64,000 nucleotides of DNA. Origin: a virus. Position numbers and translations under genes: made by a program. The notes beneath the pieces are model-generated. The model did no database searches. It worked only from the letters and a program-made list of their open reading frames with translations, and was not told the origin of the DNA. This document shows positions 7,482 through 60,005 of the stretch, one piece after another. Each line of letters opens with the position of its first letter. The stretch's first letter is position 1. The stretch covers positions 1 through 64,000 of the IMG/VR virus record IMGVR_UViG_3300050821_003843. One strand, 5' to 3'.

Positions 7482-7685
7482 ATGTTGGGCGACACGGTTT
7501 CAACAGCCTTAGAGAGTGTGGGGATTACCGATCAGCGGGTATCACAATGGCTCGGTAAACAATGTCATTGTCCCGAACGAAAGGAACGATTAAATCAGCT
7601 AGATCGTTGGGCGAGGCAGGTGATTGCGGGCAAGTTAGTCGAAGCGAGAATGTATCTCAATCAACTTTTAGAAAGTGACAAATGA
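7482..7685 (+). CDS. Small CxC-R-LN domain protein
   Basis: A 67-residue protein, MLGDTVSTALESVGITDQ..., with CHCPERKERLNQLDRW. The order GD-T-V...G-I...C-x-C-x-x-R-x-x-x-LN matches the small domain in the glycosyltransferase-like protein at 6014-7129. I chose ATG 7482 over TTG 7464 because the conserved part begins there; neither has a clear Shine-Dalgarno. Its stop overlaps the next gene's start, so it is translationally linked to the radical SAM gene. Function unknown; a metal-binding or targeting module is possible. Confidence 0.6.
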   Translation: MLGDTVSTALESVGITDQRVSQWLGKQCHCPERKERLNQLDRWARQVIAGKLVEARMYLNQLLESDK

Positions 7686-8641
7686 ACGAACAACAGGCGA
7701 TTGCGCAAATGGTCTCACCCGGTATGCGTCGACCGGGAATTTTTCGTGGTGGCATTCTACAAATCTTAGTTACGCGAGGATGCGATAAAAGTTGCTTCCA
7801 CTGTACACAAGGGAGTAACTTGGGCGGTAAACCCATGATGATTACCGTGGATCAATTTGCAGAAGCATGCGACTCTCTTCAAAGCTATTTTGGTGTAGTA
7901 GGTATGTTCGGGGGGAATCCCTGTATCCACCCCCAATTCGACAAACTCTGTCGTATCATGCGTGAAAAGATCCCATTTGAACAACGGGGCTTATGGTCTA
8001 ATAACCCATTAGGTAAGGGAGCTATCTGCGCCATCACGTTCAATCCCAAGGTGTCTAATCTAAACGTACATTTGGATCAAGCTGCACACGATGAATTCGC
8101 CACGGACTGGGTAGCAGCAAAACCCTATCTCAAAGGACTCGACAGTGACTCACGACATGGTCCCCCCTTTGTCGCTATGCAGGACGTTGGATTGAGTGAA
8201 GAGGAAATCTGGCAGAACACAGCAACATGTGATGTGAATCAACACTGGTCGGCATTGATCGGCGTTTTTCGAGGAGAACTACGCGCTTGGGTGTGTGAAC
8301 TCATGGGCGCTCAAGCGATGATCCATCAAAACGAACCTGACTACCCGGATACGGGAATGAAAGTGACTCCCGGCTGGTGGCGTAAGCCCATGACGGAATT
8401 TTCTGAACAGGTTAAGTACCATTGTCGTCGATGTGGCATTCCGTTAAAGGGATATGGTCAATTGGCGATTGGCGGGGAAACAGAACAGGTTAGTGAAACA
8501 CACAAGTCAATCTATAAACCCAAGGATAAGGATCGACTGGTACAACTCATCACAAACCGCGGGGAACTCAAGGAAGGTGCGTTAGCAGTTGCTACGAACT
8601 ACATCGAGAACTCTTCTGTCTTAGCAGGAGATGCAATATGA
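7682..8641 (+). CDS. Radical SAM enzyme
   Basis: A 319-residue protein with the radical SAM iron-sulfur motif CDKSCFHC (C-x3-C-x2-C) near residues 35-42, preceded by a beta strand ILQILVTRG. MFGGNPCIHPQF resembles the GGEP strand that contacts SAM. A second Cys set near residue 255 (YHCRRCGIPL) and CELMGA upstream may ligate an auxiliary cluster. The start is an ATG behind GAAAGTGACAA. It is coupled to a methyltransferase gene by ATGA overlap. The substrate is unknown; the neighbours suggest modification of a glycan, peptide or nucleotide sugar. Confidence 0.8.
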   Translation: MNEQQAIAQMVSPGMRRPGIFRGGILQILVTRGCDKSCFHCTQGSNLGGKPMMITVDQFAEACDSLQSYFGVVGMFGGNPCIHPQFDKLCRIMREKIPFEQRGLWSNNPLGKGAICAITFNPKVSNLNVHLDQAAHDEFATDWVAAKPYLKGLDSDSRHGPPFVAMQDVGLSEEEIWQNTATCDVNQHWSALIGVFRGELRAWVCELMGAQAMIHQNEPDYPDTGMKVTPGWWRKPMTEFSEQVKYHCRRCGIPLKGYGQLAIGGETEQVSETHKSIYKPKDKDRLVQLITNRGELKEGALAVATNYIENSSVLAGDAI

Positions 8642-9840
8642 ATTGTGACTGTCAGCACACAACCTCACCCGAGACTGGGTTGATCGTCCGAGAAAAGATC
8701 TGCGAACGTCACAGACCATTTCGCACGTTGCCAGAAGAAATAGATAGTAGTTACTATCGACGATTGGGAACGCTAAGTGATGCCAACGAAATCAACCAGA
8801 CAAATCATGTACAGGAGCTACTGAGTCAGATTGTTGATTTTGATTTACCCAATGGAAAAAGACTACTGGAAATTGGTTGTGGTGTCAGTCCCTACGTGAG
8901 TCACTTGATTCAACTCGGGTTCGAATATACGGGGTTAGATGCTTCGAAGTGGGTGTGTAATTATCTCAATAAGAAGTTCAATGTCGAGGCGATTGCCGGT
9001 AGATTTGAAGATGTTGAATTCGAGTCACGTCAATTTGATTTGATACTGGCTGCGCACGTGTTGGAACATATTGTTGATCCAATCAGTGCTCTCGAAAAGA
9101 TGAAACGTCATTTGTCACCAACAGGACGAATCATACTGCTTGTGCCAGAAGGCACAGACCTGATTAACCCCGATCACGACTGCTTCTTCACAGTGGAAAC
9201 ATTGAGTAACTGCATTCATCAGGTAGGATTGTGTATTCAACTCATTACTACAGTTCAAATCGTGGAACATGAACGCTTTATTTATGCCGTTGTCAGTCCT
9301 ATTGAGTTCCCTCGATTTGCGCCGGGTGTTTCGGGAGCAATCTATACCACCTTATCAGAAGAGGGGATGCTCACTTACTTGCTACCCAAAAATGGGACGA
9401 TGTTGGAAATTGGTTCGGCTAACGGGGGTACTGCGCATCAAGTTGCAATTGCCCGACCCGAAGCGTCAATTGTGTGTATTGATGCCTTTTGTGATCCCAT
9501 AGCGACGTATGAGTACTGGCAACGGAACCAACGTGAGAACATGGTTCTTTTCAAAGGGTACTTTACCGACTACTTGAAGCATGACAGTAGCGCCAGTTTT
9601 GATGTTGTCTTCATCGATGGGGACCATCATTACGAAAGTTGTTTAATGGACATTTATGCGTCTGTTGAGTTACTTAAAGAGGGTGGATTCATTGCAGTCC
9701 ATGACTATGGTGATCCTAACCATCGTGACGTAACTAATGCGGTTCATGCCTTCTGTATCAAAACCCGCTGGCAGTTCTACACTGTTACAGGCTCACTTGC
9801 GGTATTAAGGAATCGTGACCATGCCACACCAAACAGCTAG
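8638..9840 (+). CDS. Tandem class I SAM methyltransferase protein
   Basis: A 400-residue protein with two Rossmann methyltransferase domains. Domain 1 (about 60-210) has motif I LLEIGCGVSPYVSHL, FEYTGLDAS and the post-motif AAHVLEHIVDP. Domain 2 (about 225-395) has LEIGSANGGTAHQVA, IVCIDAFCDP and VVFIDGDHHYESC with LLKEGGFIAVHDY, a Methyltransf_24-like pattern common in sugar and surface-glycan clusters. A small Cys/His start (CDCQHT...ICERH) may bind zinc. Located between the radical SAM and glycosyltransferase genes; likely O-methylates a sugar. One of the two domains could be structural only. Confidence 0.8.
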   Translation: MNCDCQHTTSPETGLIVREKICERHRPFRTLPEEIDSSYYRRLGTLSDANEINQTNHVQELLSQIVDFDLPNGKRLLEIGCGVSPYVSHLIQLGFEYTGLDASKWVCNYLNKKFNVEAIAGRFEDVEFESRQFDLILAAHVLEHIVDPISALEKMKRHLSPTGRIILLVPEGTDLINPDHDCFFTVETLSNCIHQVGLCIQLITTVQIVEHERFIYAVVSPIEFPRFAPGVSGAIYTTLSEEGMLTYLLPKNGTMLEIGSANGGTAHQVAIARPEASIVCIDAFCDPIATYEYWQRNQRENMVLFKGYFTDYLKHDSSASFDVVFIDGDHHYESCLMDIYASVELLKEGGFIAVHDYGDPNHRDVTNAVHAFCIKTRWQFYTVTGSLAVLRNRDHATPNS

Positions 9841-30320: not shown

Positions 30321-30628
30321 AGATTAGATTGGTATGCCCCGAAGGGTGGAAACAGTGTGGGTTCCAACGTCTTGTGTGTGATGCGGTTGAATGTAGTTTG
30401 AACGATAAGGTACGAATTGCCGACACACTCAAACAATGGATCAATGATGGAGTGATGGAAGCTGAATCGAACCCGAGTACTGGCTTTGCGTTTGTGGATG
30501 GAAATAACTTGTTTGTGGAGTCAGGTGAAGGGACGACGTTACATGACTTCGCTGACTCGTTACAAGATGCTTCGAAATGTGTGGTAGAATACAAGGATGC
30601 AGATGATGAAGGGTGGCAAGTATGTTAG
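30317..30628 (+). CDS. Protein of unknown function
   Basis: 103 residues, starting MKIRLVCPEGWKQCGFQRLV. Alternating strands and an acidic C-terminal half. It overlaps the first gene of the DNA hypermodification cluster by seven bases, so it may belong to it. No family recognised. Confidence 0.5.
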   Translation: MKIRLVCPEGWKQCGFQRLVCDAVECSLNDKVRIADTLKQWINDGVMEAESNPSTGFAFVDGNNLFVESGEGTTLHDFADSLQDASKCVVEYKDADDEGWQVC

Positions 30629-31482
30629 TTGAAGAAGTTAAGAAGTTGACACCGTTACAAAGACTCTGTTTTTGGATAACCGAAAGGGAATCAATCAGGT
30701 TGAAAAAAGAAGCTGGTGATCCTAAACCGTGGAGCACGAACGAAGTATTACAGAATTTCCGCTTCTGCAATGTGATTAGGAGTGATGACAAGGTTTCACA
30801 GTGGCTCATGAACAACTGGTACACAAAGGAAAACATTGAGAAGGGGAATTTGGTAACGGCTTGTGTACTGGCACGACAGATCAACAATATCGAAACGATG
30901 ACGGATATTGGCTACCCTCATCCATGGAACCCGAAACGAGTCGAAGCGATTTGTAAAAAACGTGTAGCCGATGGGAAAAAGGTATTCAACGGCGCTTACA
31001 TCATCACGGGTGGGTTAGGTGGTGGTACGAAGGTGGAACAGGTGATTCACCTTGTGGTTGATCCAATCCATAAAGCGAAGGTAGCTCCAGTCTATGAGTC
31101 ACTTGAGGCAACACATACTCGATTGATGAATTATGTCGGTATGGGGTCATTTATTGCGGGGCAAGTGGTGGCAGACATTAAATTAGCTCTAAACCATGAA
31201 AACTATTGGCTTGATAGAAACACATGGGCTCCTATGGGTCCAGGTTCAAAACGTGGAATGAATCGACTTCACGAGCGCAACCCAGACGAGAAAAAGAATC
31301 AAGCCAAGTTCACAAAAGAACTTCAAGAACTTAGATCACAACTAAGGAAGTTGCTACCAGCAGATCTTTACTTGCGCATGGAAGCGATGGACCTTCAAAA
31401 CTGCCTATGTGAATTTTCGAAGATGGAGCGCACGTTGTTCGATAGCAAACGACCCAAACAACTCTATCCGGGGGTGAAATGA
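30622..31482 (+). CDS. Thymine pyrophosphorylase-family protein (clade 3 / HMUDK helical domain type)
   Basis: 286 residues. The N-terminal pattern LCFWITERESIRLKKEAG, KPWSTNEVLQNFRFCNV and RSDDKVSQWL is the signature of the helical family predicted as alpha-glutamyl/putrescinyl thymine pyrophosphorylase clade 3, which also forms the helical domain of some 5-hmdU DNA kinases. These act on hydroxymethyl-dU in DNA. A P-loop kinase follows with ATGA overlap, so the two may work as a split version of that two-domain kinase, or as kinase plus transferase. The C-terminal part is charged and coiled-coil-like. Confidence 0.72.
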   Translation: MLVEEVKKLTPLQRLCFWITERESIRLKKEAGDPKPWSTNEVLQNFRFCNVIRSDDKVSQWLMNNWYTKENIEKGNLVTACVLARQINNIETMTDIGYPHPWNPKRVEAICKKRVADGKKVFNGAYIITGGLGGGTKVEQVIHLVVDPIHKAKVAPVYESLEATHTRLMNYVGMGSFIAGQVVADIKLALNHENYWLDRNTWAPMGPGSKRGMNRLHERNPDEKKNQAKFTKELQELRSQLRKLLPADLYLRMEAMDLQNCLCEFSKMERTLFDSKRPKQLYPGVK

Positions 31483-32060
31483 TTATTTCACTCCGGGGGA
31501 CAAATGGATCAGGCAAGTCCACTGTCGTGCGTAAACTCATGGAACGCTACAACGCACAACCTGAGAGCCTTGATTCAAAGGGCAGACCGATGAACTATGT
31601 AATGACGTTGGGTAATGGATCATCACTGTACGTTGTAGGCTGCTATCAGAATGCTTGCGGTGGTTGCGACGGTATTCACCCCTTTACTGAAATTTGGCCA
31701 CGTGTAACGCGATTGGCAGCGTTGGGACACGTGTTATTCGAGGGGCTGGCGTTTACCAGTGGTTACGGCAACATCGGCAAGGATAGTGAAGTGTATGGTG
31801 ATGATTTTGTTTTTGCGTTTATGGATACCCCACCAGAAGTCTGTATCCAACGGGTACTTGCTCGACGTGAAGCAAAGGGAACTGAAAAACCGTACAGCCC
31901 AAAAAACCTGATGAGTAAGCTAAGTGCGGCGCGTAGCAGCGAACGTAAGATAAAAGAAGTGTACGGTAGGCGAGTTGTTTCAATCAATCACCGTGCAGCA
32001 GTTCAGCAGATTTTAGGGATCTACTATAATGCAAAACGAATTGAATGCATTGGAGTTTAG
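31479..32060 (+). CDS. P-loop kinase, probable 5-hmdU DNA kinase
   Basis: 193 residues. Walker A LRGTNGSGKSTVV is near residue 5-17; FAFMDTPPEVCIQRVLARR is the lid/thymidylate-kinase-like region. In hypermodifying phages such a kinase phosphorylates 5-hydroxymethyluracil in DNA to make it a leaving group. Its place between two pyrophosphorylase-family genes supports this over a nucleotide kinase role. Overlaps the next gene by 32 bases. Confidence 0.72.
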   Translation: MIISLRGTNGSGKSTVVRKLMERYNAQPESLDSKGRPMNYVMTLGNGSSLYVVGCYQNACGGCDGIHPFTEIWPRVTRLAALGHVLFEGLAFTSGYGNIGKDSEVYGDDFVFAFMDTPPEVCIQRVLARREAKGTEKPYSPKNLMSKLSAARSSERKIKEVYGRRVVSINHRAAVQQILGIYYNAKRIECIGV

Positions 32061-32823
32061 TCGACAACTAATTACATTGAATGACTTAGATCCAACGTAT
32101 GTTGTCTTGTGGTATGCGCAACTAGAGCCTGAACTAAAAGCAAAATTTCTCCTAGCTTACTTGTGCTTTTATCATTTTGGAACGGCATCATGGATCTGTT
32201 CACAAAATAACTATTGGCAAGGGATGATGGATGCGGCAGCAACGAAAGAGCGACCTAGAGCAAGTGAGCGTCGTCATTTTCGAGGGGGGCAAGCAACTCG
32301 GGCAATTCAGGACTTAATTGATTTAAAACTGACTCCATTACGCATCGTTCAACACTGGTCGAATGGTAAAATTAAACCAAGCGCTTTGGAGGTAATACAG
32401 CAAGTTAAAAACCATCGTGGGTTTGGTGATTGGGTGAGTTTCAAAGCGGCTGACTTATTAGAACGATTGGCAATAGTCCAAGTTCAATTCACACCGGATG
32501 ATGTATTCAACATGTACGAATCGCCACGACTAGGCGCAGAATTGATTGCTGCACAACATGACGTTCCAATGGAACAGGCTTGTCAATTTGCCTACAACCA
32601 TTTGACAGCAGGATTAAAGGATCTACTTGCTCCGCCACGTTGCGAACGACGATTGAACATCCAAGAGATTGAAACCTGCTTGTGCAAGTACCACAGTTAC
32701 CACAAAGGTCATTATAAATTAGGACAAGATGTTATCGAGGTGCGCCATGCAATTGAGTTGTATGGTAGCTTGCCGATGAGTAAACGTCTATTTAATGCTG
32801 GTAAGAGTGGAGGGCTGTGGTGA
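32029..32823 (+). CDS. Thymine pyrophosphorylase-family protein (clade 2 type)
   Basis: 264 residues. LNDLDPTYVVLWYAQLE, then FLLAYLCFYHFGTASWIC, and a central RHFRGGQATRAIQDL match the clade 2 group of alpha-glutamyl/putrescinyl thymine pyrophosphorylases, DNA glycosylase-like helical proteins. They displace the pyrophosphate from activated 5-hmdU with an amine or amino acid. GFGDWVSFKAADLLERL resembles the helix-hairpin-helix part. The acceptor amine cannot be read from sequence. Confidence 0.72.
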   Translation: MQNELNALEFSRQLITLNDLDPTYVVLWYAQLEPELKAKFLLAYLCFYHFGTASWICSQNNYWQGMMDAAATKERPRASERRHFRGGQATRAIQDLIDLKLTPLRIVQHWSNGKIKPSALEVIQQVKNHRGFGDWVSFKAADLLERLAIVQVQFTPDDVFNMYESPRLGAELIAAQHDVPMEQACQFAYNHLTAGLKDLLAPPRCERRLNIQEIETCLCKYHSYHKGHYKLGQDVIEVRHAIELYGSLPMSKRLFNAGKSGGLW

Positions 32824-33662
32824 AAGACGTAATTGTCATTGGAGCGGGTATTATTGGCGCTACGATTGCTAAGTCACTACAGACGCAGGGAAGAGACGTA
32901 TTGGTGATTGATAGTAATGAGTCACTGGCGGGGACAAAACCCTCTGGGGGCCATTTAAAGCCATCATGGTTTGGAGGGATGTCGAAAACTGAGTATGAAC
33001 CTGCAATGGAACTACTCAATGAGACTTGGGGATTGATTGAAGAACAGTTTACTATCAAGGCGTTGGGAATCAGTACGGGCGTCACTTCAACGGTTTATCG
33101 AGTTGACACGGATAAGGTAATTGAGTTTCCAAGGGTTGTAGGAAGAGTGTGTTCATTACAGTTTTTGGATAACTACCCAAATGTTGTATGGAACAATGGT
33201 GAAAGTCAGGAACGTTGCCGCTTGTTGATTGTCGCGGCTGGAGTGTGGTGTGGAACGTTACTTCCACAACTTGCTTTGAAAATACAGCGTAAGCAGGGAA
33301 TATCGTTCCGATATAAAGGTCAGTTGAAAGAACCATTTATCAATCCGTGGGCACCATACAAGCAGATTGTTGCGCATCAACAATCGTCGAATGAGATTTG
33401 GATAGGCGATGGGTCTACGATACTACAACCAAACTGGACAGCTAAAAGAGAACTTGAGTGTCGAACACGATGTGAGAATAACTTACAGAAGATGCAGTAC
33501 ATTCGTTCTATTACTGGGTTGCGACCCTACTGTGAAAGTGGGAAAGACCCTTGTCTATTAAAACAAGTTTTCAACCGTGTATGGGTCGCGACAGGTGCGG
33601 GTAAGTCTGGGACCATTGCAGCGGGTTGGGTTGCTAGAAAGATCATTGATGCCACGAGCTAA
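32817..33662 (+). CDS. FAD-dependent oxidoreductase (DAO-like)
   Basis: 281 residues from GTG 32817. VIVIGAGIIGATIAKSL is the dinucleotide-binding GxGxxG motif, VLVIDSNE the ribose-binding acid, and VWVATGAGKSGTIAAGWVAR the C-terminal FAD contact. The DAO type oxidises amino groups. In phages with amino-acid-linked thymines a related FAD enzyme processes the attached glycine; the same role is likely here because it sits between a pyrophosphorylase and an amidoligase gene. Confidence 0.75.
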   Translation: MVKDVIVIGAGIIGATIAKSLQTQGRDVLVIDSNESLAGTKPSGGHLKPSWFGGMSKTEYEPAMELLNETWGLIEEQFTIKALGISTGVTSTVYRVDTDKVIEFPRVVGRVCSLQFLDNYPNVVWNNGESQERCRLLIVAAGVWCGTLLPQLALKIQRKQGISFRYKGQLKEPFINPWAPYKQIVAHQQSSNEIWIGDGSTILQPNWTAKRELECRTRCENNLQKMQYIRSITGLRPYCESGKDPCLLKQVFNRVWVATGAGKSGTIAAGWVARKIIDATS

Positions 33663-34524
33663 AATCACTTCAGTCAATTGGACCTATGGGTGTGAGTTAG
33701 AACTAGGTGACGTGAGCAGAGACATAGTAATTCCTCTACAATATGGTAAATGGGAGTATGCTGAGACGGATATTGTCAACATACTTCCTCCATACCGGCA
33801 TGTTGCTTGTGACCCATTGGGGTTGGAACCACCAATGGGGGGTGAGATCAACACTGTTCCAACAATTGGTTGGAAATCACAAATCAAATTGATTGAAGAA
33901 TTGTTGAAATGGTTAATCACTGAGGGACAATCACCAACAACAAATTGTATATCACACACACACGTACATATCCACATACCGAGACTAGTACGTGACATTG
34001 AACTACTCAAAAAATTGACTAGGTATATAATGGAGAATCAAGTTAAATCTGTTGATAGTTGCCTTCAATTTGATTCTAGGCAAATGTCTGCAAAATTAGG
34101 GGCGGGATATTTGAAACTCGATTGTGGAAGACTGATGCCTGATTGGATGGGTGAGAATATTATCAACATGGCAAACTCGTTTGATGATTTTATCCGTATC
34201 CAGTGCTGTGGTAAAGATGGTGTCAGTCGTGGTAGACCGTTTCGATATGCGATCAATACATACTGCCTAAAGCACACACAGACAATTGAATTCCGACTAT
34301 TTCGTAGCTCACTTGACTTACTAGAGCTCTCTGACTGCTTTCGATTCGTGGAACAATTCATGTTGGCGGCATTGAATGATGGACCTTCAGTGGATGAGTT
34401 ATTGAGGGTAGGTTATAAGTTTCCTCCGTTTCGCTACTCGCTACCAGAAGTCGAAGGCTGGCTAAAAACGAAGTGGGATAAAAGTAGGGGGGAGAAGAAA
34501 CGTGAATTCATTCCAGTTACGTGA
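33649..34524 (+). CDS. Amidoligase-family (ATP-grasp-like) enzyme
   Basis: 291 residues, ATG 33649 behind GAAAGATCATTG. WTYGCELELG, THVHIHIPRL and TIEFRLFRSS are the three signature strands of the phage/bacterial amidoligase (COOH-NH2 ligase) family, including the metal-binding Glu and His. Such enzymes were predicted to join amino acids or amines to modified thymine. It overlaps the FAD gene by 14 bases and the GNAT gene by 23 bases. Confidence 0.75.
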   Translation: MPRAKITSVNWTYGCELELGDVSRDIVIPLQYGKWEYAETDIVNILPPYRHVACDPLGLEPPMGGEINTVPTIGWKSQIKLIEELLKWLITEGQSPTTNCISHTHVHIHIPRLVRDIELLKKLTRYIMENQVKSVDSCLQFDSRQMSAKLGAGYLKLDCGRLMPDWMGENIINMANSFDDFIRIQCCGKDGVSRGRPFRYAINTYCLKHTQTIEFRLFRSSLDLLELSDCFRFVEQFMLAALNDGPSVDELLRVGYKFPPFRYSLPEVEGWLKTKWDKSRGEKKREFIPVT

Positions 34525-35032
34525 AACAACTCGCGGAGAGTTTGTGACTGCTACGGGGTTGCATCCAGTTGCGGCTGACTCATTTGCTAAAACATTTCGC
34601 GCTAAAGCCGATGCATTTGACCTATGGCCGTGCCTAGGCGTATGGAATGACAGGCAGCAACTGATGGGGGCGATTATTTGGACGATTACACAACGGCAAC
34701 CGCATATCGCAAATTTACAACTACTTCACACGTTCGCCGAGTATCGTCGACAGGGAGTGGCGTCAAAACTGTGTGTGGAGTGTTTAAATCGCGTGAGAGG
34801 GCTTGGGGCTGAGTATTTGAGGGTGAGTAGTGAGCCTGAAAGCGTGGCGTTTTACAAGAGCCTAGGCATTCAATTTTTAGGTAGGCAAAAATCAGGTTGC
34901 TTACTGGCGATGGGTCGATTAACGGGTACTGATGGCGATTTCAGACAACTTAATTACTCATTAGAACACGAGCCGATAAGAAAAGCAGTGTTCCGAAAGG
35001 GTAAAGGAGGTTGTGTTGAAGTGTTTAAATAA
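34502..35032 (+). CDS. GNAT N-acetyltransferase
   Basis: 176 residues from GTG 34502 behind GGGGGGAGAAGAAAC. IANLQLLHTFAEYRRQGVAS is the acetyl-CoA binding motif A (Q/R-x-x-G-x-A) and ESVAFYKSLGIQFLGR motif B. As the last gene of the hypermodification cluster it probably acetylates the amine on the modified base. Followed by a terminator-like hairpin and convergent genes. Confidence 0.75.
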   Translation: MNSFQLRETTRGEFVTATGLHPVAADSFAKTFRAKADAFDLWPCLGVWNDRQQLMGAIIWTITQRQPHIANLQLLHTFAEYRRQGVASKLCVECLNRVRGLGAEYLRVSSEPESVAFYKSLGIQFLGRQKSGCLLAMGRLTGTDGDFRQLNYSLEHEPIRKAVFRKGKGGCVEVFK

Positions 35033-35088: not shown

Positions 35089-35505
35089 TTATTGCTTGAC
35101 CCACACATTTCCCCGCTTACCTTCGGTTGATCCGTAAGCAACTCGACCGTCTTCCACCATCAATTTCAAATGATTGACGACAGGACCACCCTCTTTTCCA
35201 CCGGGTGTACGACCTAGTCCGACAACGATTTCACGTGAGGAGTAATCGTGACCCTTCTTCATGAACTTGAGGATTTGATTTTGGAGTTCGGTTGTGTCGG
35301 TTCGTGTTGCTCGTGGGGCTGATTCCTTTTTCACTAATTTCGCAGCAGCCTTTTTCGTAGCCACTTTTTTCACGGGGGCAGTTGACTTGGCGGCAACCTT
35401 TTTCACTGCCTCCTTTTTAACAGGGGCAGGTGATGCAGCAGCATTCACGGGAGCACCGGTGACCACGCCATCAATCACAGCGTTTCCAACAACTTTCTTA
35501 GCCAT
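35089..35505 (-). CDS. Histone H1-like tail plus winged-helix-like protein
   Basis: 138 residues. Residues about 25-70 are Lys-Ala-Pro repeats (APVKKEAVKKVAAKSTAPVK, TKKAAAKLVKKES) like histone H1 or bacterial HC1 tails. The C-terminal 65 residues (LQNQILKFMKKGHDYSSREI, then VVNHLKLMVEDGRVAYGS) have a winged-helix pattern. Probably a DNA-binding or nucleoid-like protein of the phage. The ATG is preceded by GAAAGATGACGAATT. Confidence 0.68.
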   Translation of the reverse strand: MAKKVVGNAVIDGVVTGAPVNAAASPAPVKKEAVKKVAAKSTAPVKKVATKKAAAKLVKKESAPRATRTDTTELQNQILKFMKKGHDYSSREIVVGLGRTPGGKEGGPVVNHLKLMVEDGRVAYGSTEGKRGNVWVKQ

Positions 35506-35939: not shown

Positions 35940-36557
35940 ATGAGAGAAATTGTTCGGATTCTCGTTGACATGGACGGTCTGTTGACGAATTTTGATGACG
36001 CGGCGTGCCTCGCACATGGCTTTCCGATCCAAATGTTACACGATTACAGGCAGCCGGGTGAATGGTCGCTCATCCCTATTTTCGCTCGAATGCGGGGCGA
36101 AATCATGAGTGTGGAGGAATTTTGGAGGGTGATTGGCGAACATGGTGAACTATTTTGGACCTCGTTGGCGCAAACCGAATGGATGGACCCATTGCTCCAA
36201 TTGGTTAAAGAATTCAACGGTAGTGATTGGCATGTGGTAACAGCCCCAAGCCATTGCCCCACGTCGTATAGTGGAAAGGTGAAGTGGTTGAAGTCACGAC
36301 TTGGCAAGGAATTTGATCGGGTACTGGCAACCCCGCACAAGGAAATTTTAGCCATGCCGGGTGTTATACTGATTGATGACAACGAACAAAACATACAACG
36401 GTTTAAACTGGCCGGTGGTAGTGGGATCTTGTTCCCAATAATGGGGAACTGTCTACATCACTTGGCAAATAATCCAGTGGCTTACGTGCGTGAACAGATA
36501 GAAGAAAGGCTGTATAAGGATGAATCTGAAAGTAGGGCAGATAGTCACGTGGCTTGA
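35940..36557 (+). CDS. 5'(3')-deoxyribonucleotidase (HAD family)
   Basis: 205 residues. VDMDGLLTNFD is HAD motif I with both catalytic Asp; HVVTAPSHCPTS is motif II and LIDDNEQNIQRF motif IV. The NT5C group removes phosphate from deoxynucleotides such as dTMP and dUMP. Next to a thymidylate-synthase-like gene it should drain dTMP so that the modified nucleotide replaces it. AGAGGAGTTTTCT precedes the ATG. Confidence 0.75.
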   Translation: MREIVRILVDMDGLLTNFDDAACLAHGFPIQMLHDYRQPGEWSLIPIFARMRGEIMSVEEFWRVIGEHGELFWTSLAQTEWMDPLLQLVKEFNGSDWHVVTAPSHCPTSYSGKVKWLKSRLGKEFDRVLATPHKEILAMPGVILIDDNEQNIQRFKLAGGSGILFPIMGNCLHHLANNPVAYVREQIEERLYKDESESRADSHVA

Positions 36558-36735
36558 ACCAATTCGCACACAGATTGAAAACCGTGGGAATATGTTGGGA
36601 CCACGGATGATAGATCAGGAATTACACCACAGTGGTGAAGTGATTTCGATTGAGGGTGATTCGTGTACGGTACGCGATTCATGGGGTTTGATTTGGCAAC
36701 TGAAAATTGAAAAGGACAAGTTGACATGCATCTAA
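36520..36735 (+). CDS. Small protein, unknown function
   Basis: 71 residues; overlaps the nucleotidase gene by 38 bases and the next gene by 10. KVGQIVTWLEPIRTQIE and SCTVRDSWGLIWQLKIEKDK look like a small SH3-like barrel. No family recognised. Confidence 0.5.
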   Translation: MNLKVGQIVTWLEPIRTQIENRGNMLGPRMIDQELHHSGEVISIEGDSCTVRDSWGLIWQLKIEKDKLTCI

Positions 36736-37862
36736 AGTATCCAAACGTAAATGACGCATTCCACGAATTGGTCTACGGAATTCATAATGGACACATTCCA
36801 ACCGTGTCATCACCTAGTAGAGTTGGTGACGTGTTACAAATCCAAGAACCTGTGATTGTCACATATGAAAAGCCGCTAGAGAGGGTGCTGTTCAACCCTG
36901 CACGCGATGTTAATCCATTCCTGAACTTGTATGAAACACTTTGGATGTTGGCTGGCCGTAATGACATTGCACCATTGGAATATTACTCTAAGAACTATGG
37001 TCAGTTCGTGGATGATGGTGATGGAATGCAGAATGCAGCATATGGATATAGGTGGAGACATGCATTACATAAAGAAATGGGAGATCCATGTAGTAAGTGT
37101 GGTGAGAGCGTTCCTTGTCACTGCGACGCACCATATTGTGTAGATCAACTCAAAGTTATTATCGACCATTTACGAAAGATACCAACGTCAAGACGTGTCG
37201 TGCTCCAAATGTGGAACGTAGAAGATGACTTACTCAAGATTGAAACAACAAAAGATGTTGCGTGCAATCTATGTGCGTTGTTCTCGTTGAGACAAGCTAG
37301 TCGAAAAGAAATAGAAGAAGAGGCACATAACGGCTACTATCTCGATATGACGGTCTACAATCGCTCGAATGACTTGACTCTTGGACTTTTGGGGGCGAAC
37401 GTTGTTCACTTCTCATTTCTACAAGAATACATGGCGAATTGCTTAGGCGTTCAGGTGGGGGTGTATAATCAAGTGAGTAACAATCTCCATTGTTACACAT
37501 CACGTTGGGAACCAGATAAGTGGTTAGCAGAAGGTGTGTGTGATGAGTACAGAAACCAACAGTGGAATCATGTACCGTTAGTTAAGGACCAACAGACGTT
37601 TGATAGTGAGTGTCGTAATTTTGTGGCTATGAACTTTTGCGGTGGTGTAATCCACGATAACCGTTGGGAAGAACCATTTTTGCGAACCGTGGCGCAACCG
37701 ATGATGAATGCCTTCCATTATCACAAACATCGCAAATACTGGGAAGCGTTGAATCACGGTGTTGCGAACATTGCTGACGGCGCTTGGCAATTGTGCGCAT
37801 ACAGATGGATTGAGAAACGACGACTGGCTTGGGAAGCGAAAAAGGAGACGAATGATGAGTAG
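36726..37862 (+). CDS. Thymidylate synthase family, probable dUMP hydroxymethylase
   Basis: 378 residues. VVLQMWNVEDDL, then DVACNLCALFSLR holding the catalytic Cys, and VYNRSNDLTLGLLGANVVHFS match ThyA-type enzymes; the Asn in LGANVV corresponds to the residue that selects dUMP rather than dCMP. The residue after the catalytic Cys is Asn in place of the ThyA His, as expected if water replaces hydride transfer. FNPARDVNPFLNLYETLWML is the N-terminal core. A Cys cluster insert (CSKCGESVPCHC) is unusual. Product: 5-hydroxymethyl-dUMP. Confidence 0.8.
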   Translation: MHLKYPNVNDAFHELVYGIHNGHIPTVSSPSRVGDVLQIQEPVIVTYEKPLERVLFNPARDVNPFLNLYETLWMLAGRNDIAPLEYYSKNYGQFVDDGDGMQNAAYGYRWRHALHKEMGDPCSKCGESVPCHCDAPYCVDQLKVIIDHLRKIPTSRRVVLQMWNVEDDLLKIETTKDVACNLCALFSLRQASRKEIEEEAHNGYYLDMTVYNRSNDLTLGLLGANVVHFSFLQEYMANCLGVQVGVYNQVSNNLHCYTSRWEPDKWLAEGVCDEYRNQQWNHVPLVKDQQTFDSECRNFVAMNFCGGVIHDNRWEEPFLRTVAQPMMNAFHYHKHRKYWEALNHGVANIADGAWQLCAYRWIEKRRLAWEAKKETNDE

Positions 37863-38105: not shown

Positions 38106-38636
38106 TTGTACGGAGGTATTCCTAGCGGAGAATTTGGCAATAGGTCTCCCACATGGAACGGCTGGCTTGATTGGAATAAAGATCATCTAGGTTCTGATAA
38201 GTTTGAATTGTTTCACATTCGAAATCGTGTTGCAGGTGCAATGACTTGGTATGACGTGCCCAAATTCAAAATGGCTGATACGTGGGATATCGCTTGTCAA
38301 CACTTTAGCGTGGAACAGTTGTACATATCTGCTATGTGCCCTACTGAGTTGACACAAATCCAAGGTGAGGTAATGAGAACAGCCAAAGGACTGTATCTCT
38401 ATTACTCAACCGTAAAGAAGCCGATGCGTCAATCATTGTTGGAAGGGGGTCAAGAAGCACTAGGACTATTTGCAGTTTCTTTACTACAATACTACATGGA
38501 TCAAAACAGTTGGGAATGGTTGAATCACTTACTCGATAGTTATGAAGATCATGTCGTAGAGTTTACAACGCTCTCCAAACGGTGGGGCGCAGTCGAAGGA
38601 TATAACACACTATTTTGGGAGGTTAGAAAGTTCTAA
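38106..38636 (+). CDS. Protein of unknown function, TTG or ATT start
   Basis: 176 residues from TTG 38106; ATT 38103 is the codon before it and could also serve. No Shine-Dalgarno is evident for either. Begins YGGIPSGEFGNRSPTWNGWL, rich in Trp and Gly, and ends helical. Its stop overlaps the MazG-like start. Position suggests nucleotide metabolism, but no motif supports that. Confidence 0.5.
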   Translation: MYGGIPSGEFGNRSPTWNGWLDWNKDHLGSDKFELFHIRNRVAGAMTWYDVPKFKMADTWDIACQHFSVEQLYISAMCPTELTQIQGEVMRTAKGLYLYYSTVKKPMRQSLLEGGQEALGLFAVSLLQYYMDQNSWEWLNHLLDSYEDHVVEFTTLSKRWGAVEGYNTLFWEVRKF

Positions 38637-39358
38637 TGGATATTAAACAGTACGAAGAAGCCAGCATGCGCACGATGGCAGACCAGAATGTGATTCGTCT
38701 ACGTAATTTTGAAGGCGTAGATAAAAAAGGTAATCCACAATTTGGCGGAAAAAATAGTAGTACAGTTCTGACACAACTCGACAACGCTGCTAGAGGCATG
38801 GCTGGTGATGTGGGTGAGGTCAATACGTGTGTACAACAAGCATTGGAGTATGGTAAACTACTAGACTTGGTGAATTTGAAGGAAGAACTAGGTGATGTGT
38901 TATGGCGAATCGTACAAGCATGTAACGCCGTGGGGTTCACGTTGGAGGAAGTGATGCAAGCGAACATTTCAAAGCTGGCTATAAGATACCCCGACAAGTA
39001 CACGGACCACTTAGCAGATGAGGCAAATCGAAATCGTGAAGCAGAACGACAAGCAATCACGGTTCCACAACTAGGCGAACCTTATCCAGTTGGTCATACG
39101 AATGACGGTGGAGTGATTGTAGAACCAATGTCACCAACCAGAACAGTAATGTCTCAAACTGGACAAGGTTGGGCAGAACCAAAAGAACAACGTGATACGG
39201 GACCGGGTCGATTGGATCAAGAACTAGAATACCCAGTTTCCAATGCATTTGTGTCTGCTGCTGATGCCCCTGTTCGTAGATGTCGAAAGTGCGGGTTGAA
39301 GATCCATCGTAATCAACCAAGTGATATCTGTTCAAGTTGCTTCAAACCTACAACGTGA
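38636..39358 (+). CDS. MazG-like nucleotide pyrophosphohydrolase with zinc finger
   Basis: 240 residues. GMAGDVGEVNTCVQQALEYG, then LKEELGDVLWRIVQACNAVG, gives the EExxE-x(n)-ExxD-type magnesium site of all-alpha NTP pyrophosphatases. MANISKLAIRYP-like QANISKLAIRYPDK closes the fold. The C-terminus adds a zinc finger (CRKCGLKIHRNQPSDICSSC). Likely hydrolyses dTTP or dUTP to feed the hydroxymethylase. Confidence 0.75.
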   Translation: MDIKQYEEASMRTMADQNVIRLRNFEGVDKKGNPQFGGKNSSTVLTQLDNAARGMAGDVGEVNTCVQQALEYGKLLDLVNLKEELGDVLWRIVQACNAVGFTLEEVMQANISKLAIRYPDKYTDHLADEANRNREAERQAITVPQLGEPYPVGHTNDGGVIVEPMSPTRTVMSQTGQGWAEPKEQRDTGPGRLDQELEYPVSNAFVSAADAPVRRCRKCGLKIHRNQPSDICSSCFKPTT

Positions 39359-58769: not shown

Positions 58770-60005
58770 ATTCTAACCCAAGACTTTATTTTGAATGGGG
58801 AAACTCATGGTGAGTTTGCCGAACTGTTGCCAGGACTGCGATTTGACGTGGGTATGATGAAGCCCTTTTTCGACTCACGCAATCAACGGTGTGTAGTTGT
58901 GAATAGTGGTCGTAAGGTGTATTCTGAAACTTTGAAAGAATACGTCCCGATCTACGAAAAGAAACTCATCAAGGATCTAGTTGCGAATGGCATCGAATCA
59001 CCAGTCTTCAACGATACTACCTTGCGTAAGCAGGAATGGATTGAGTTGGATAAGGTGATTCTCCGTGCTGCACGATATCGGTTGCGAGCATGGGCAGACC
59101 TTGCGGCGCAATCGTCATTCGGCGGATTCGACGGTATGTCGAAAATGGTTCTCGAACACGAAACCATGTCAGATCCCGGTGAAGCAGTTCAGGATATGGA
59201 TGGCTTGGCGGATGGTCGTGCGGATACACCACGTTACCAACTGCAAGGCTTGCCACTACCAATTACCCATGCAGACTTTTGGTATTCCAAACGTCGCCTG
59301 ATGTTGTCACGCAACACGGGTACGCCATTGGACACCACGATGGGTGAGTCTGCTAGTCGTCGTGTAGCAGAAATGATTGAACGTAGCCTCATTGGTAACT
59401 CCACGGGGATTACCTATGGTGGAGCTAACAATCCAAGTTATGGTCGTACATCCACGGTGTATGGTTATACGAACTTCCCCGCTCGATTGACGTACTCAGC
59501 AGCCCATGCGCCAACAGAAGGTTCATGGACTCCTGCGACGCTATTGGCTGACGTATTGGCCGTGAAGCAGTTGTTGATTAACAACAAATTCTATGGTCCA
59601 TACATGATGTACACGTCAACGGATTGGGACAAGTATCTCGACAACGATTACTACGTCAGCATCACGTCGGGGGCAGTGGCACCAACCAAAACCTTGCGTG
59701 AGCGATTACGTGAGATTGATGGGATTCAAGACGTACGTCGTTTGGATCTGTTCTTCGCCAGTGCTCCAACGGCTGGTGGTCCAGGATATGCGAACTTGGG
59801 TTTGACCCTCAATCCATTCACGTTCATTCTGGTACAGATGACACCAGATGTTGCCCGTGCGGTGAATGGTATGGATATCAGTACCATTCAATGGGAATCT
59901 CACGGTGGATTGAGATTGAACTTCAAGGTTCTGGCAATTCAGGTTCCACAACTCCGTGCTGACTATTACAACAACTGTGGGATCGCCCAAGCCACGGTAA
60001 CTTGA
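58770..60005 (+). CDS. Major capsid protein, probable AUU start
   Basis: 411 residues from ATT 58770. AGGAGG (58758-58763) lies 6 bases before it. The alternative TTG 58791 is 27 bases from the Shine-Dalgarno, too far. Sequence features fit a HK97-fold capsid protein: IYEKKLIKDLVANGIESPVF, then a long GLADGRADTPRYQLQGLPL region, and the C-terminal WESHGGLRLNFKVLAIQVPQ with its VLAIQ strand. The most abundant virion protein having an AUU start is remarkable. Confidence 0.78.
   Translation: MLTQDFILNGETHGEFAELLPGLRFDVGMMKPFFDSRNQRCVVVNSGRKVYSETLKEYVPIYEKKLIKDLVANGIESPVFNDTTLRKQEWIELDKVILRAARYRLRAWADLAAQSSFGGFDGMSKMVLEHETMSDPGEAVQDMDGLADGRADTPRYQLQGLPLPITHADFWYSKRRLMLSRNTGTPLDTTMGESASRRVAEMIERSLIGNSTGITYGGANNPSYGRTSTVYGYTNFPARLTYSAAHAPTEGSWTPATLLADVLAVKQLLINNKFYGPYMMYTSTDWDKYLDNDYYVSITSGAVAPTKTLRERLREIDGIQDVRRLDLFFASAPTAGGPGYANLGLTLNPFTFILVQMTPDVARAVNGMDISTIQWESHGGLRLNFKVLAIQVPQLRADYYNNCGIAQATVT

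Follow-up and report, generated by a model that had tools for sequence, protein, structure and literature searches.

A six-gene cluster in the virus record IMGVR_UViG_3300050821_003843 is predicted to make a hypermodified thymine by a route that ends with an amidoligase and a GNAT acetyltransferase. The window analyzed is bases 1–64000 of this 72,917-base record. It contains tape measure, terminase, portal, and head genes, and the virus is therefore a tailed phage; a near-identity search of window positions 28–40 kb against phage records gave 0 matches. From sequence comparison, we somewhat favor a pathway in which steps like those of phage PaMx11 give an aminomethyl base, the amidoligase extends it, and the GNAT caps the product. 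The cluster is by sequence of the PaMx11 type rather than the M6 type, and its amidoligase-GNAT back end is found in neither phage. No published link between an amidoligase and thymidine hypermodification was found (Lee 2022 and Iyer 2013 may mention one), and the novelty of the amidoligase-containing cluster is provisional.

PaMx11 (N-alpha-GlyT, 5-NmdU; PDB 8z2m, 8z2o) has a thymidylate synthase (TS)-like protein, a two-part 5-hydroxymethyldeoxyuridine (5-hmdU) kinase, a glycine-type transferase, and a flavin lyase, all of which also occur in the window at 31 to 38% pairwise identity (Table 1). The amino acid:DNA transferase (ADDT) is related to a solved protein named 'Glycinyltransferase', and the DAO-family protein to one named 'Flavin-dependent lyase'. 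The ADDT sequence is that of a glycine:DNA transferase of the PaMx11-type 5-NmdU pathway, with glycine specificity predicted, and the window lyase keeps the KPSW, WAPYxQ, GDG, and TGxxKxG stretches common to seven lyases. A Walker A motif is present in the P-loop kinase; among specific Pfam families it matches HMUDK_HMUD1 best (PF18748, 0.0011), below the family cut-off. The best solved relatives of the TS-like protein are CMP 5-hydroxymethylases (1.3e-13), ahead of thymidylate synthases (1.8e-6), and we infer that it is a dUMP hydroxymethylase. The deoxyribonucleotidase-like and MazG-like proteins would control the nucleotide pool. Homologues of the M6 (5-NedU) gp51 transferase, gp54 and gp55 kinase parts, and gp58 TS are present, whereas the M6 pyridoxal phosphate (PLP) protein gp52 and radical S-adenosylmethionine (SAM) protein gp53 have no tblastn match at 1e-3 in the 72.9-kb record. 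The first-pass annotation had proposed a 5-hmdU kinase and amino acid transfer pathway to a hypermodified thymine, and this is still the best reading of the Pfam, PaMx11, and PDB homologies; its M6 model accounts for only those four proteins, and PaMx11 is the closer one. The PaMx11 homologies, the solved lyase and transferase relatives, and the missing M6 radical SAM and PLP matches together make a PaMx11-like front end the best reading, and the route up to 5-aminomethyl-dU is very probably common to both phages. We take the PaMx11 enzymes to act at these steps from the PDB names and a cited title.

By homology to the PaMx11 pathway, the TS-like enzyme would first form 5-hydroxymethyl-dUMP, which enters DNA, while the nucleotidase and MazG protein help to shape the pool. 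The two-part kinase would then phosphorylate 5-hmdU in DNA, the transferase would swap the phosphate for glycine, and the flavin lyase would cut the glycine to leave 5-aminomethyl-dU. In a fifth, new step, the amidoligase would use ATP to couple a carboxylic acid, most likely an amino acid, to the aminomethyl group, and in a sixth the GNAT would acetylate the amine that the amidoligase step added. Sequence comparison suggests that the 5-aminomethyl-dU amine is the probable target of the amidoligase. Given a ligase acting on that amine, glutamate joined through its gamma-carboxyl is a weakly held, tentative candidate for the acid, put forward because of superfamily precedent.

The amidoligase AlphaFold2 (AF2) model (pLDDT 92.6) has the fold of the glutamine synthetases (GS) and glutamate-cysteine ligases (GCS), with Z 9.3–10.6 to YbdK, GS, and GCS proteins in the VIA alignment. 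All of 37 sequences keep residues E16, E18, E66, H105, H107, T212, E214, F215, and R216 in the GxExE, GGE, HxH, and TxEFR motifs, which we take to be the pattern of the GS metal and nucleotide site. A fold of GS/GCS type with these invariant residues points to an ATP ligase, and the family very likely couples a carboxylate to an amine in an amide bond. A PDB sequence search with a four-sequence amidoligase profile gave no match. Identity of the window amidoligase reaches 57% with homologues in viral operons that carry a glutamine amidotransferase (GATII), and is 30% with that of phage Simon, the sole match in phage records. The GNAT model (pLDDT 94.9) is a generic GNAT, near N-terminal and amino acid acetyltransferases. 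The window GNAT is 49 to 50% identical to the amidoligase-adjoining GNATs of contigs L004 and L005.

The genes that follow the lyase were surveyed in other viruses. An alignment scan with seven lyases yielded 49 viral loci, making 56 with the window and six phages; a single-sequence scan of the viral contigs confirmed none. An amidoligase is present in 24 of the 56, a PaMx11-type GNAT, which we take to acetylate the amine, in 15, and both in none. With near-copies removed, the 47 remaining loci comprise 21 with an amidoligase, 12 with the PaMx11-type GNAT, 0 with both, and 14 with neither (Fisher p 3.7e-4 for the exclusion, in a test that ignores kinship). A lyase tree of 45 rows requires 9 changes in the label 'amidoligase', 4 of them forced by well-supported branches, and the exclusion is therefore not one inherited accident. 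It argues that the amidoligase replaces the amine-acetylating enzyme of PaMx11. A hidden acetyltransferase was not found in the amidoligase loci among 25 of 27 families (76/92 unassigned open reading frames (ORFs); the rest are mostly short), nor in the loci of neither type among 13 families (41/49 ORFs scanned; the rest are mostly short).

Several finishing genes accompany the amidoligase. A low-molecular-weight (LMW) phosphatase gene is found in 18/24 amidoligase-bearing lyase loci (e.g., L002:9860–10381) and in 0/32 other lyase loci. The window-type GNAT occurs in 2/56, the window and L108, and a radical SAM gene lies directly beside a clade-II amidoligase at L090:6829–7995, L096:9741–10937, and L118:6686–7972. 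The post-lyase slot thus holds a PaMx11-type GNAT, or an amidoligase with a GNAT, LMW phosphatase, or radical SAM gene, or none of these (14/47). Phage Simon (PQ683277.1, unannotated) has the transferase, flavin lyase, amidoligase, two-part kinase, and TS in common with the window; it differs in its distant amidoligase and in an LMW phosphatase where the window has the GNAT. It is improbable that the window follows a plain PaMx11-like pathway, with 5-aminomethyl-dU or a GNAT-made acetyl form as the final base and a marginal or inactive amidoligase. The front end does correspond to PaMx11 gene for gene, but the motif residues of the amidoligase are intact, and PaMx11 gp48, the terminal GNAT, has 0 matches in the window or the record end. 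The window instead has the amidoligase and an unrelated GNAT of a type found only with amidoligases.

The same amidoligase-GNAT pair occurs in a second background. An amidoligase scan of viral contigs confirmed 131 relatives, and the best 80 of the 131 plus one earlier locus gave 81 loci with a near-fixed gene order: TET/JBP, GATII, amidoligase, GNAT, often an insert, ADDT, and kinase. Profiles detected GATII in 79, GNAT in 80, TET in 75, ADDT in 73, and kinase in 69; flavin lyase, TS, and HMUDK_hel profiles each matched 0/81. Both loci that lack GATII have the amidoligase right at the contig start, and the locus that lacks GNAT belongs to a contig that stops just past the amidoligase. Pfam supports the family identities in L004 (Tet_JBP 1.4e-24, GATase_6 2.6e-12, ADDT 2.4e-19). 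The window amidoligase is 46 to 57% and its GNAT 40 to 54% identical to those of these operons. In contrast to them, the window has TS and flavin lyase genes, and TET/JBP and GATII were not found in it or in positions 60000–72917 of the record. A GNAT-side scan gave 344 relatives; of the 80 kept, 18 were already in the set, leaving 62 new loci. The amidoligase is in 58 of the 62, and in the other 4 the contig opens with the GNAT itself; the window-type GNAT and the amidoligase are therefore one unit. A scan of bacterial genomes with the amidoligase found one short contig (L201, titled an Actinomycetota metagenome-assembled genome) with GATII, amidoligase, and GNAT, which is possibly viral. In the long TET/GATII records, which may be fragments, a C5-cytosine methyltransferase and a thymidylate synthase were each found in 0/14, and this leads us to lean toward thymine, oxidized in DNA, as the TET target. 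The paper on Rhodococcus phage Tonitrus (PMC11955845) names a TET-type thymidine system and reports ParB-TET-aGPT-Pplase2-kinase thymidine hypermodification genes; it nowhere uses the word amidoligase.

Two features of these operons were also recorded. At L066:5466–7994, GATII is flanked by two amidoligase copies in a single operon. An insert close to the GNAT, in most cases separating it from the transferase, is present in 45/83 loci (L007–L085, e.g., L007:11441–11896); it was labelled a putative homing endonuclease, and the one member scanned had no Pfam match.

Finding the same pair with GATII and another transferase type, and without the flavin lyase, in TET/JBP operons leads us to read the two enzyme sets as alternative routes: 'transferase + GATII' and 'glycine transferase + flavin lyase' would each reach one aminomethyl base, the amidoligase substrate. 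This would be the simplest account of the loci in which the parts are swapped. The amidoligase tree (36/38 dereplicated sequences; Simon's and the contig-cut L055 were left out) parts two distant clades at 100/100, and both are found beside flavin lyases. The window and L108, both sited in flavin-lyase clusters, nevertheless pair (98/95) on the GATII side. The GNAT alignment used 33/41 sequences. The hybrid L090 (5942–11669) joins a TET/JBP and kinase of the GATII-operon type to a flavin lyase, glycine-type transferase, radical SAM gene, and amidoligase, with no GATII in the locus, and L134 and L135 combine TET with a flavin lyase and a glycine-type transferase. By sequence, these mixtures indicate that the transferase type follows the amine route, not the manner of making 5-hmdU. 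A broader idea, which we regard as tentative and rather doubtful, is that the amidoligase is a shared extension module. Two unrelated enzyme sets, one the glycine transferase plus flavin lyase and the other a different transferase plus a glutamine amidotransferase supplying ammonia, would converge on a 5-aminomethyl pyrimidine, which the ATP-driven GS-like ligase would aminoacylate in an isopeptide-like bond before exchangeable finishers (GNAT, LMW phosphatase, radical SAM) act. Thymine in the flavin-lyase phages would on this idea have amino acids attached twice.

In a rival chemistry, the DNA-bound glycine would be amidated before the lyase acts: the amidoligase would couple ammonia or an amine to its carboxylate to give a glycinamide-type base, GATII supplying the ammonia in TET operons. 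In its favor, GS-fold enzymes use ammonia, GATII lies directly 5' of the amidoligase in TET-type loci and is found in 79/81, and the two families also pair in LUZ24-like phages. We consider this amidation unlikely: GATII is matched in 0/56 lyase loci and so is missing from all 24 that bear an amidoligase; the lyase removes the glycine carboxylate; and the exclusion between amidoligase and PaMx11-type GNAT fits two enzymes that share the amine as their target. The available text of PMC3890496 gives this pairing of GATase II with Amidoligase_2 in LUZ24-like phages, and describes no such cluster there. That occurrence would suit a reading, which we find quite improbable, in which the two back-end proteins serve to make a small molecule or to modify a protein and merely share the operon, as would the generic amine acetyltransferases that the GNAT fold matches. 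Against it, wherever the contig is long enough the GNAT-amidoligase pair is found with a DNA transferase and kinase, and this holds in two different modification backgrounds.

Several points weigh against the favored pathway of an extended and capped aminomethyl base. Given the LUZ24-like pairing, the amidoligase itself may be what GATII feeds. The window amidoligase is not over the curated Amidoligase_2 (PF12224) cut-off (14.3 bits vs 22, E 0.037; the L004 homologue scores 19.6 bits), and the best Foldseek hit of its model is a gamma-glutamylmethylamide synthetase at E 1.9e-3, with none at 1e-3 or better. In the lyase, a window Asp aligns with the Lys preceding PCLL in 8z2o, and a window Lys is one position earlier. 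Of the 47 dereplicated lyase loci, 14 carry neither an amidoligase nor a PaMx11-type GNAT. Two close sequences went into the profile for the PaMx11-type GNAT and a single one into that for the LMW phosphatase. The lyase and amidoligase locus sets were each gathered with their own query, the latter as the best 80 of 131 relatives, and the exclusion between GATII and flavin lyase is therefore partly built in. The support as a whole consists of sequence comparison and predicted structures.

The first-pass annotation had described six genes with overlapping ends, including a P-loop kinase, an FAD protein, an amidoligase, and a GNAT, and the ORFs and families bear this out. The six plus-strand ORFs span 30613–35032, from a start earlier placed at 30622, and overlap successively by 4, 32, 7, 14, and 23 bases. 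The two proteins once called pyrophosphorylase family exist as genes and are renamed HMUDK_hel, the helical part of the 5-hmdU kinase, which we take to be the family formerly named aGPT-Pplase1, and ADDT. The dUMP hydroxymethylase-like, MazG, and deoxyribonucleotidase genes were located nearby as described. The amidoligase most likely starts at the ATG at 33649, because homologues begin near there.

Table 1. Predicted genes of the cluster and its surroundings, in window coordinates; PaMx11 identities are pairwise.
Feature	Position	Strand	Evidence
HMUDK_hel, helical partner of 5-hmdU DNA kinase	30613–31482	+	Pfam PF18723 1.8e-41; PaMx11 gp50 31%, Simon 30%
P-loop kinase partner of 5-hmdU DNA kinase	31479–32060	+	PaMx11 gp49 34%, M6 gp54 27%; Walker A; PF18748 below cut-off
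ADDT, glycinyltransferase-like	32029–32823	+	PF18724 1.8e-12; PDB 8z2m/8z2n E 2.9e-33; PaMx11 gp46 32%
Flavin-dependent lyase homologue	32817–33662	+	Pfam DAO 2.5e-22; PDB 8z2o/8z79 E 2.9e-48; PaMx11 gp47 35%
Predicted glutamine-synthetase-fold amidoligase	33649–34524	+	Sub-threshold Amidoligase_2; AF2 model; 46–57% identity to 35 viral homologues
GNAT acetyltransferase	34502–35032	+	Pfam 6.8e-8; AF2 model with GNAT fold; 49–50% to L004/L005 GNATs
Deoxyribonucleotidase-like	35940–36557	+	phrog_2643 1.1e-13; Pfam NT5C below cut-off
TS-like, putative dUMP hydroxymethylase	36726–37862	+	Pfam 1.3e-21; PaMx11 gp51 38%
MazG-like pyrophosphohydrolase	38636–39358	+	PF03819 1.8e-9

Three other regions of the window were noted. 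A Lys/Ala-rich, histone-H1-like ORF on the minus strand (35089–35505) is convergent with the GNAT gene and has 0 Pfam matches. The TS-like gene and the MazG gene are separated by a 176-residue ORF (38106–38636) with neither a Pfam nor a PHROG match. Distant from the cluster, a radical SAM gene is followed by a double methyltransferase fusion (7682–9840), a pair possibly involved in sugar or tail modification.

Known thymidine hypermodifications reportedly arise when an amino acid or amine is placed on 5-hmdU and then trimmed. If the proposed pathway is correct, the amidoligase step would let phages build the base group outward using ATP. Finishing genes that can be exchanged would account for a wide variety of bases from a small set of parts. 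With the amidoligase in at least 131 viral contigs and the partner GNAT in 344, this chemistry could be common. Bases of this kind are relevant to how phages escape nucleases and as a source of enzyme tools for DNA labelling, and a hypermodified thymine may help this virus evade the DNA-cutting defenses of its host.

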